From Spirochaetaceae bacterium (GTDB lineage: Bacteria > Spirochaetota > Spirochaetia > DSM-27196 > PWMO01), in assembly GCA_007693325.1 (NCBI GenBank), contig REDW01000102.1, forward strand, positions 1-51,480: 51,480 nucleotides of DNA, written 5' to 3'. The position numbers and the translations under genes are program-made. Below, one piece after another: positions 41,583 through 49,709 of this stretch. The stretch's first letter is position 1. Each line of letters opens with the position of its first letter. The notes below the pieces were generated by a model. It saw nothing but the letters and a program-made list of their open reading frames with translations, was not told the origin of the DNA and ran no database searches.

Positions 41583-42785
41583 ATGAATCACGCCGGATAT
41601 CCGTTCAGTGCCGTTGTTGGACAAGAATCCATGAAGACCGCGCTGCTGGCTGCCGCGGTTGATCCTTCGCTCGGCGGCGTATTGATCCGCGGCGAGAAAG
41701 GTACCGCAAAATCCACCGTGGTGCGCGCCTTACGCGAACTGCTACCGCAACTGCAAACGGTTGCCAACTGTCCCTACCACTGCCATCCCGACCAGCCGCT
41801 GGGCCTCTGCGATCAGTGTCGCGACAACCCGGCTCCCCAAGCGGTGTCCGCCGCGGTACCGCTGGTTGAGCTGCCGTTGGGTGCCACCGAGGACCGAGTG
41901 GTTGGCACCCTGGACATCGAGCAGGCACTGAGCGCGGGCGTGCGGCGCTTCGAGCCCGGTCTGCTGGCCGAGGCAAACCGCGGCATTCTCTACGTCGATG
42001 AGGTGAATCTGCTCGAAGACCATCTGGTGGATCTGCTGCTCGACGCTGCTACCTCCGGTGAAAACGTTGTAGAGCGCGAAGGAATTTCGCTGCGCCACCC
42101 GGCGCGCTTCATACTGGTGGGGACCATGAACCCGGAGGAGGGCGAATTGCGCCCGCAGTTCCTCGACCGTTTTGGACTATGTGTCACCGTACGCGGCCTG
42201 TCAGAGCCTGGAGATCGCATCGAGGTAATTCGCCGCCGTAACGCATTTGAAGCCCAACCTCAACGGTTTGCCGCCGAATGGCGGCAGGAGGATCAGCGTC
42301 TCAGCCGACTGGTAGACGCCGCGCGCGAGCGGTTAACCGCGCTCGAGTTGAGCGACGATCTGCTTCACACTGCGGTGACTATCAGCGCGGAGGCCGGAGC
42401 AGCCGGACACCGGGCAGACCTGGCGCTGGTCAAGGCCGCTCGTGCCTTTGCCGCGCTACTCGAGCGCGACAGCATCGAGCGTGAGCTGGTGTTCGAGGCA
42501 GCACGTTTTGTGCTGCCGCACCGATTTGACGGACGGCTGCTGCGTTCACCCGAGGAAGCCGACGCCGAGATAGATGCACTGCTCAAGCGCCTGCAGAGCG
42601 ACGGAGCGTTGCAGAAGGCGTCGACTGATCGCACGTTGTCAGAAGAACCGGCCAGGACCGATCCCGATGAGCTGGACGAACAAGCCCTGGAAGCGATGCA
42701 GATCCCTGGAGGCGCCGCCGCTGGGAGCATTCTGCTGCCGATACTCAAAAAAAAAAGCTCGCCGATGACGACACCCCCGAAGTAA
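41583..42785 (+). CDS. chlD: Chelatase AAA+ part (ChlI-like), zero-frame product of chlD
   Basis: The zero-frame product is 400 residues and resembles the small AAA+ subunit of magnesium or cobalt chelatases. Walker A is GEKGTAKST (37-45), a Cys cluster (CPYHC and CDQC, residues 63-79) is typical of the cobaltochelatase-associated branch, and Walker B is ILYVDEVN. After residue 385 the frame passes through ten A bases (42747-42756) and ends 10 codons later. The conserved linker and VWA domain continue in the -1 frame. A -1 shift gives a 668-residue full ChlD. Known chlD genes make both subunits from one gene by such frameshifting. The partner CobN-type subunit is not in the window. Confidence 0.85.
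   Translation: MNHAGYPFSAVVGQESMKTALLAAAVDPSLGGVLIRGEKGTAKSTVVRALRELLPQLQTVANCPYHCHPDQPLGLCDQCRDNPAPQAVSAAVPLVELPLGATEDRVVGTLDIEQALSAGVRRFEPGLLAEANRGILYVDEVNLLEDHLVDLLLDAATSGENVVEREGISLRHPARFILVGTMNPEEGELRPQFLDRFGLCVTVRGLSEPGDRIEVIRRRNAFEAQPQRFAAEWRQEDQRLSRLVDAARERLTALELSDDLLHTAVTISAEAGAAGHRADLALVKAARAFAALLERDSIERELVFEAARFVLPHRFDGRLLRSPEEADAEIDALLKRLQSDGALQKASTDRTLSEEPARTDPDELDEQALEAMQIPGGAAAGSILLPILKKKSSPMTTPPK
42747..42756 (+). other. A10 slippery site for -1 frameshift in chlD
   Basis: Ten A bases follow CTC in the zero frame as AAA AAA AAA AGC. A -1 slip reads AAG CTC GCC and enters the VWA frame. The A AAA AAA type is among the most slippery sites known. Insertion of one A by polymerase slippage would have the same effect. 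GGGAG at 42723-42727 lies about 20 bases upstream, further than a typical stimulating site. A sequencing or assembly indel is possible. Confidence 0.7.
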
Positions 42786-43588
42786 GACGCTCGGTAGAGG
42801 CTGCGGTTGCCGGAATCATACTGCGCCTGCGGCGCAGACGCGGCAGGGCGCGTCGCACCACCGGCAAACGCGGGCGCTACGTCTTTGCACGCCCGGCGGG
42901 CCGCGACGGCGCAGTCAGTGATCTGGCTGTTGACGCCACGCTGCGCGCCGCCGCGCTGGACCGCGCTGTCGGCGCAGCCCGTTCGCTGATGGATCGCTCA
43001 CACCTGAGGCAGAAGATACGCCGCAGACGTGACCGCCACACGGTTGTTTTTGTGCTCGACACCTCGGATTCCATGGCCGAGCAAAACCAGCTGCACGTGG
43101 CACGGATCGCGCTTCTGTCACTATTGGCATCAGCCGAGCGACGCAAAGACCGCGTTGCGTTGATCACCTTTGGCGATATCGAAGCCAAAGTGGCGCTCGA
43201 ACCAACCTCGGCAATCGCGCGTGCACGCTACGCCATTGATAATCTTTCTCTCGGCGGCGCAACCCCGCTGGCCTCGGGGCTTTACCTCGCGCTGCGCCTG
43301 GTGGAAACCCAGCGCATGCGGGAACCGGGAGAACCGATCGAGGTGCTGGTCTTTTCCGACGGCGAGGGTAACGTCTCGCCCGACAAAGAGCACCAGACTA
43401 TCGAGTCGGTTGCCGCGATGAGTAAGCGCATCGGCGTGCACCCGTTGTTCATCGATACTACCGGGTCGCGGCGCGGCAGCCGAGCGATGCAGGAGCTCGC
43501 CGCGACATTCAGCGGAACCTACCGGCGGCTGCATGGTGCCGACCGCGAGGAGCTGGCGCAGATGATCAGCCAGATGCGGGTTGGCTAG
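42755..43588 (+). CDS. chlD: Chelatase VWA part of ChlD, reached by -1 frameshift
   Basis: Read in the -1 frame from the A run, 277 codons encode an acidic then Arg-rich linker, the family motif TTGKRGRYVFARPAG, DLAVDATLRAAALDR, and a VWA domain. The metal-dependent MIDAS residues are DTSDS, the Thr of GGATPLASG and the Asp of FSDGEGN. In chelatases this domain docks the AAA+ ring onto the large metal-inserting subunit. The first ATG in this frame, at 42989, lies after the conserved linker, so independent translation would lose part of the family core. This supports a frameshift over a separate gene. Confidence 0.82.
   Translation, partial: KLADDDTPEVRRSVEAAVAGIILRLRRRRGRARRTTGKRGRYVFARPAGRDGAVSDLAVDATLRAAALDRAVGAARSLMDRSHLRQKIRRRRDRHTVVFVLDTSDSMAEQNQLHVARIALLSLLASAERRKDRVALITFGDIEAKVALEPTSAIARARYAIDNLSLGGATPLASGLYLALRLVETQRMREPGEPIEVLVFSDGEGNVSPDKEHQTIESVAAMSKRIGVHPLFIDTTGSRRGSRAMQELAATFSGTYRRLHGADREELAQMISQMRVG
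42821..42837 (+). other. Hairpin CTGCGCC-TGC-GGCGCAG in the chlD linker
   Basis: A perfect 7-base stem with a 3-base loop lies 64 bases after the A10 run. This is too far to stimulate frameshifting directly in known cases, and it has no T run. Confidence 0.3.
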
Positions 43589-49665: not shown

Positions 49666-49709
49666 ACGCCAGCGGGTCGCGGCCTGTTGCAATCCGGCGG
49701 TTTTTTTTT
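49665..49709 (+). terminator. Probable rho-independent terminator
   Basis: AACGCC and GGCGGTT form the base of a hairpin (one bulge) enclosing a GC-rich loop, followed by nine T bases at 49701-49709. It ends the DRTGG gene. The last T begins a TATACT box (49709-49714) that may be the -10 box of the next gene. Confidence 0.55.

Follow-up and report, generated by a model that had tools for sequence, protein, structure and literature searches.

The window analysed here, a stretch of 51,480 nucleotides from a Spirochaetaceae bacterium, contains a chlD-like gene that is split by a run of ten adenines (A10), so that its AAA+ part and its VWA part are read in frames offset by one base. This locus raises the question of whether the run is a genuine slip point from which one gene supplies two ATPase subunits and, if so, whether these subunits belong to a cobaltochelatase and whether the ribosome or RNA polymerase does the slipping.

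Anatomy of the split gene

All features of the gene lie on the plus strand. The zero-frame open reading frame (positions 41583 to 42785) translates to a short product of 400 amino acids, with a structural match that identifies it as a ChlI-like AAA+ ATPase; residues 6–315 align with Rhodobacter BchI (PDB 1g8p, E 4.7e-94). The Walker A motif, GEKGTAKS (41691–41714), is common to the short and long products. The A10 run (42747–42756) is read in the zero frame as CTC AAA AAA AAA AGC, which places the slippery motif A_AAA_AAA in register, and is followed by a zero-frame tail of 26 bases and a TAA codon (42757–42785), the length of which varies between species. The -1 frame passes the A10 without a stop; its extension (42755–43588) encodes a basic linker followed by a VWA domain (43043–43366; PF13519, VWA_2, E 4e-16) with the MIDAS motif DTSDS at 43058–43072, and it ends in a stop codon at 43586–43588. 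Joined by a -1 slip, the two frames give a product of 668 amino acids, which aligns end to end with the TIGR02442 profile (positions 1–640 of 641). The VWA domain with its metal-binding DTSDS motif is confined to this long product, and the intact Walker A motif is found in both. These coordinates and lengths, and the position of the VWA frame one base back, are in agreement with the initial annotation. A scan of the window against Rfam returned tRNAs only.

This anatomy is that of a published family, fs-chlD, in which a -1 shift at an A-rich site links the AAA+ and VWA parts; as the initial annotation had stated, frameshifting chlD genes have already been reported (PMC3711429; PMC9227772), also by Antonov 2020 according to the description of that work in PMC9227772. 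The 'stage 1' fs-chlD genes of Kuznetsov 2022 include those of Spirochaeta thermophila and Brevefilum fermentans, and S. thermophila appears there as having a frameshifted chlD but neither a large subunit nor a B12 pathway (PMC9227772). The window gene shares with the family a slippery A run in the overlap of two frames that are offset by one base, the absence of any close separate chlI among the genes found and, with the 'stage 1' genes, the lack of a large subunit and of a B12 or chlorophyll pathway. Both its anatomy and its programmed shift place it in this family.

Conservation of the slip site and selection on the -1 frame

Named GTDB contigs and whole genomes at the level of genus, order and class supplied the relatives. 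Among these, 52 loci were classed as split, having AAA+ and VWA parts in different frames and a readable junction, and they belong to Spirochaetota, Thermodesulfobacteriota and Chloroflexota; two more, L011 and L014, were left out for their further frame breaks. The break is in the -1 direction in all 52 split loci, and the A_AAA_AAA context singled out by the initial annotation is in zero-frame register in every one of them. The run in the frame overlap ranges from A7 to A10, and its offset within the codon is 0, 1 or 2 while the -1 relation stays constant, a combination that argues against sequencing error. By chance, about 0.004 runs of A10 or longer would be expected in the window (both strands), and the whole genome (3.47 Mb) has seven runs of A9 or longer. 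The same A10 is present in a congener from an independent assembly (G004; protein 95% identical). The A10 run is a genuine and widely conserved slip point, not an indel.

Homopolymers are prone to error, and in one congener (G001) the run is A11 and a frame of 676 residues is uninterrupted. Even so, the homopolymer indel that had been named as the main alternative, in which the gene is really one frame, is extremely improbable: some 30 separate genomes of spirochaetes, as well as Chloroflexota and Thermodesulfobacteriota, show the -1 break at an A9 or A10 run, A_AAA_AAA is present in 52 of 52 loci from three phyla, and the codon offset shifts from locus to locus.

The two excluded loci show irregularities of other kinds. 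In L014 (G052) the VWA part lies in yet another frame, about 300 bases past the run, and its sister L050 (G077) has the ordinary -1 layout; the further frame of L014 is probably a single indel or sequencing error. L011 (G018) has an additional frame break 5' of the A10, in the AAA+ part, which probably reflects indels in the G018 assembly.

In the phylogenetic tree the split genes of Spirochaetota and Thermodesulfobacteriota form one clade (30 rows, support 100), and those of Chloroflexota fall apart from it. Loci with a separate chlI provide an internal control: where it lies beside chlD, chlD is unbroken (27/27 loci in the tree set); one genome of the window's own order (G031) has a cluster of chlI, chlD and cobN without an A run. 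The clade itself contains no relative with a continuous frame that lacks the run: its single unbroken member (L005, on contig C203 of G001) is the A11 gene of 676 residues, which is nested beside an A10 gene (L004), so that the A11 is either derived or an assembly error. A -1 slip at this A11 would yield the short product instead. The same genome carries a second N-terminal fragment (L031, on contig C229), 73% identical to the window protein.

Selection on the codons past the run bears on whether the VWA part might be a separate protein initiated at its own start codon, with no shift. An ATG at 42989 does open a frame of 199 residues covering the VWA part, but the -1 frame of the window gene has no ATG, GTG or TTG for 77 codons past the run, and the selection begins at the run itself. 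Over the first 75 codons, comparison of L001 with L002 or L003 gave dN/dS values of 0.11–0.21 in the -1 frame and of 2.15–2.44 when the same codons were read in the zero frame (zero-frame values as a set, 1.7–2.4). For the VWA part the values were 0.08–0.09. Purifying selection on the 75 codons is confined to the -1 frame, which indicates that translation in this frame starts at the run and not further on. Because the first usual start codon lies 77 codons past the run, initiation there cannot make the conserved stretch, and without a shift there would be no reason for the run and its register to be kept. A separately initiated VWA protein is thus highly unlikely. The conserved run, register and direction, the A10 of G004 and the selection on the -1 frame all bear out the proposal of a programmed -1 shift with two products, a short one of AAA+ alone and a long one of AAA+-VWA layout, and the cell very probably makes both ATPase subunits from this slip point.

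Partner proteins and the role of the two subunits

The initial annotation had assigned the two products to a cobaltochelatase and suggested a search for cobN. The programmed frameshift it proposed is supported; the assignment to cobaltochelatase is not. In the window genome (97.5% complete, 150 contigs), a profile search with working positive controls gave no match to PF02514 (CobN/ChlH), and CbiC of the corrin ring pathway (CbiC/CobH), CbiX and a BtuR-type CobA were not found. In an assembly of 150 contigs one missing gene could sit in a gap; the absence of CobN/ChlH, however, recurs across some 30 genomes, of which several are single-contig. No split-chlD genome of the window's order has CobN/ChlH, and the same is true of all the spirochaete genomes searched that carry the split gene; across the class it was detected in 5 of 395 genomes, none of these with a split gene. 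Among the named loci, some with short fetched flanks, cobN/chlH was present in the flank of 0 of 22 split genes versus 30 of 51 unbroken ones. TIGR02442, a putative cobaltochelatase model, is the closest in NCBIfam, but its score of 635.6 bits falls short of the cut-off of 779.45. In a few split-chlD genomes of Chloroflexota, such as that of Herpetosiphon (L074), CobN/ChlH is encoded at another place; a chelatase role may apply in those Chloroflexota, but not in the window genome. That the split gene encodes cobaltochelatase subunits is very improbable on this evidence. The use of B12 by NrdJ and QueG had been offered as support for a cobaltochelatase, but needing B12 does not imply making it.

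A magnesium chelatase (ChlI/ChlD) was also considered and rejected: no ChlH was found, PF02514 being unmatched, and the product scored under the cut-offs of TIGR02030 (402.8 vs 466.95 bits) and TIGR02031 (351.2 vs 499.55 bits).

The window gene is therefore probably not a cobalt chelatase, and with neither CobN/ChlH nor a corrin pathway found, the complex most likely inserts no metal into a B12 precursor. Judged from sequence, we consider it likely that the gene is an fs-chlD from which an AAA+ protein of 400 amino acids and an AAA+-linker-VWA protein of 668 amino acids are made, and whose complex is not a metal inserter. At a run of A9–A11, part of the decoding would slip by one base. Without a slip, the product would be the ChlI-like AAA+ subunit of 400 amino acids; with it, the ChlD-like AAA+-linker-VWA subunit of 668, with an identical ATPase domain. 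Frameshifting by chlD cassettes assayed in E. coli reached 63, 40 and 10% with 11, 9 and 7 A, respectively (PMC3711429); from these figures, similar levels of the two products would be expected at an A10 run.

The gene resembles ChlI/ChlD and CobS/CobT in its AAA+ domain (1g8p) and in the AAA+-VWA layout of the medium subunit, but differs in that no ChlH/CobN partner was found and in that one gene serves for both subunits, which share an intact Walker A motif. By analogy with these pairs, the two subunits probably form a mixed AAA+ ring whose VWA arms touch a client protein. RavA-ViaA and NorQ-NorD are AAA+/VWA pairs with clients, and the complex may, like them, act on a different client. When the genes flanking the split gene were examined for a client or partner, no gene family recurred beside it across families; shared neighbours, such as an M48 peptidase, were confined to congeners. 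The role of a machine without the large subunit has already been raised as a question (PMC9227772).

Ribosome or RNA polymerase

The shift could be made by the ribosome at A_AAA_AAA, by RNA polymerase at A9–A11 or by both, and we regard the choice as nearly even; the ribosomal mechanism first proposed is not proven. If RNA polymerase slips, the run would give mRNAs with varied numbers of A, and ordinary translation of these would yield both products; this alternative concerns the mechanism only. The slip sites of the published chlD genes usually have downstream stimulatory structures (PMC9227772). When the 60 bases past the run were folded and compared with shuffles at 30 spirochaete loci, the mean z was 0.01 (0.57 for the window gene), with no stimulatory structure apparent, and the best hairpin 3' of the run was weaker than at most places in the same gene (mean percentile 0.70). 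Nor was Shine–Dalgarno enrichment seen 5' of the run in the spirochaetes. The spirochaete set thus differs from the published sites in having no hairpin signal and at least nine A: the run was A9 or A10 at 30/30 tested loci and A11 in the congener L005, never shorter than nine, though seven A are enough for the ribosome. AAA accounts for 32% of Lys codons in the window region, AAG being commoner.

Several further observations suit slippage by the polymerase. The run of the window gene has the nine or more A of programmed transcriptional slippage sites, and nine A are enough for efficient slippage in bacteria (PMC1088944; PMC5009743); the continuous A11 gene nested in the clade would under such slippage still give both products; and the genome's two A10 runs both lie at -1 transitions. 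Set against this, polymerase slippage would accept either direction, and the direction is constantly -1, with A_AAA_AAA in register, at 52 loci, a uniformity that comes partly from shared descent. A long A run favours ribosomal slippage as well, so that length alone is no sign of the polymerase, and the Chloroflexota relatives with A7 or A8, some of them with hairpins, look ribosomal. Chloroflexota runs are A7, A8 or A9, and hairpins occur at L086, L089, L104, L109 and L120. We put the involvement of RNA polymerase in the window's lineage at slightly below even.

In three of the Chloroflexota loci (L086, L089 and L104), A8 is followed within about 10 bases by a hairpin whose arms resemble CTGACCG...CGGTCAG, in contrast to the sites in spirochaetes. 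The two groups recall the dnaX genes of Thermus thermophilus, in which the polymerase slips at A9 (PMC5009743; PMC1088944), and of E. coli, in which slippage is ribosomal. In dnaX too, one AAA+ gene with an A run supplies a short and a long subunit; there, however, the long product is the zero-frame one, whereas here it depends on the shift in all but the A11 congener, and the partners are unrelated.

At the only other A10 of the genome (G000:C144:5253-5262), a short frame with an ATG start gives way to a frame of 323 codons one base back. In the window species no start codon of the longer frame precedes the run, and the first comes about 130 bases after it. This A10 is kept in all five genomes of the genus in which the gene was found, that of the window included (L155, L157–L161), and the codons past it are under purifying selection in the 323-codon frame, with dN/dS of, for example, 0.02 (L160 vs L161) and 0.26 (L157 vs L158). 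The short upstream frame is well conserved between L160 and L161 only, and the product has no Pfam match. A further run in the window, T9 at 49701–49709 (A9 on the minus strand), lies about 500 bases upstream of the start of the NrdJ gene.

For the clade of Spirochaetota and Thermodesulfobacteriota as a whole, we tentatively propose, as a possibility short of the probable, that chlD yields both subunits chiefly through slippage of RNA polymerase at A9–A11, rather than by ribosomal frameshifting, and that these form a chelatase-like AAA+/VWA machine that acts on a client without a large subunit. New here are the constancy of A9–A11 in spirochaetes without stimulators, the continuous A11 congener and the -1 transition at a second A10. 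The run-length data make ribosomal and polymerase slippage directly testable against each other within one gene family. Annotation pipelines may treat such a gene as two genes or as a pseudogene, and give it the name of a cobaltochelatase. Independent genomes confirm that slippage-coded chlD is retained in lineages without the chelatase large subunit, and this retention suggests that the frameshift serves an AAA+/VWA machine and not only B12 synthesis.
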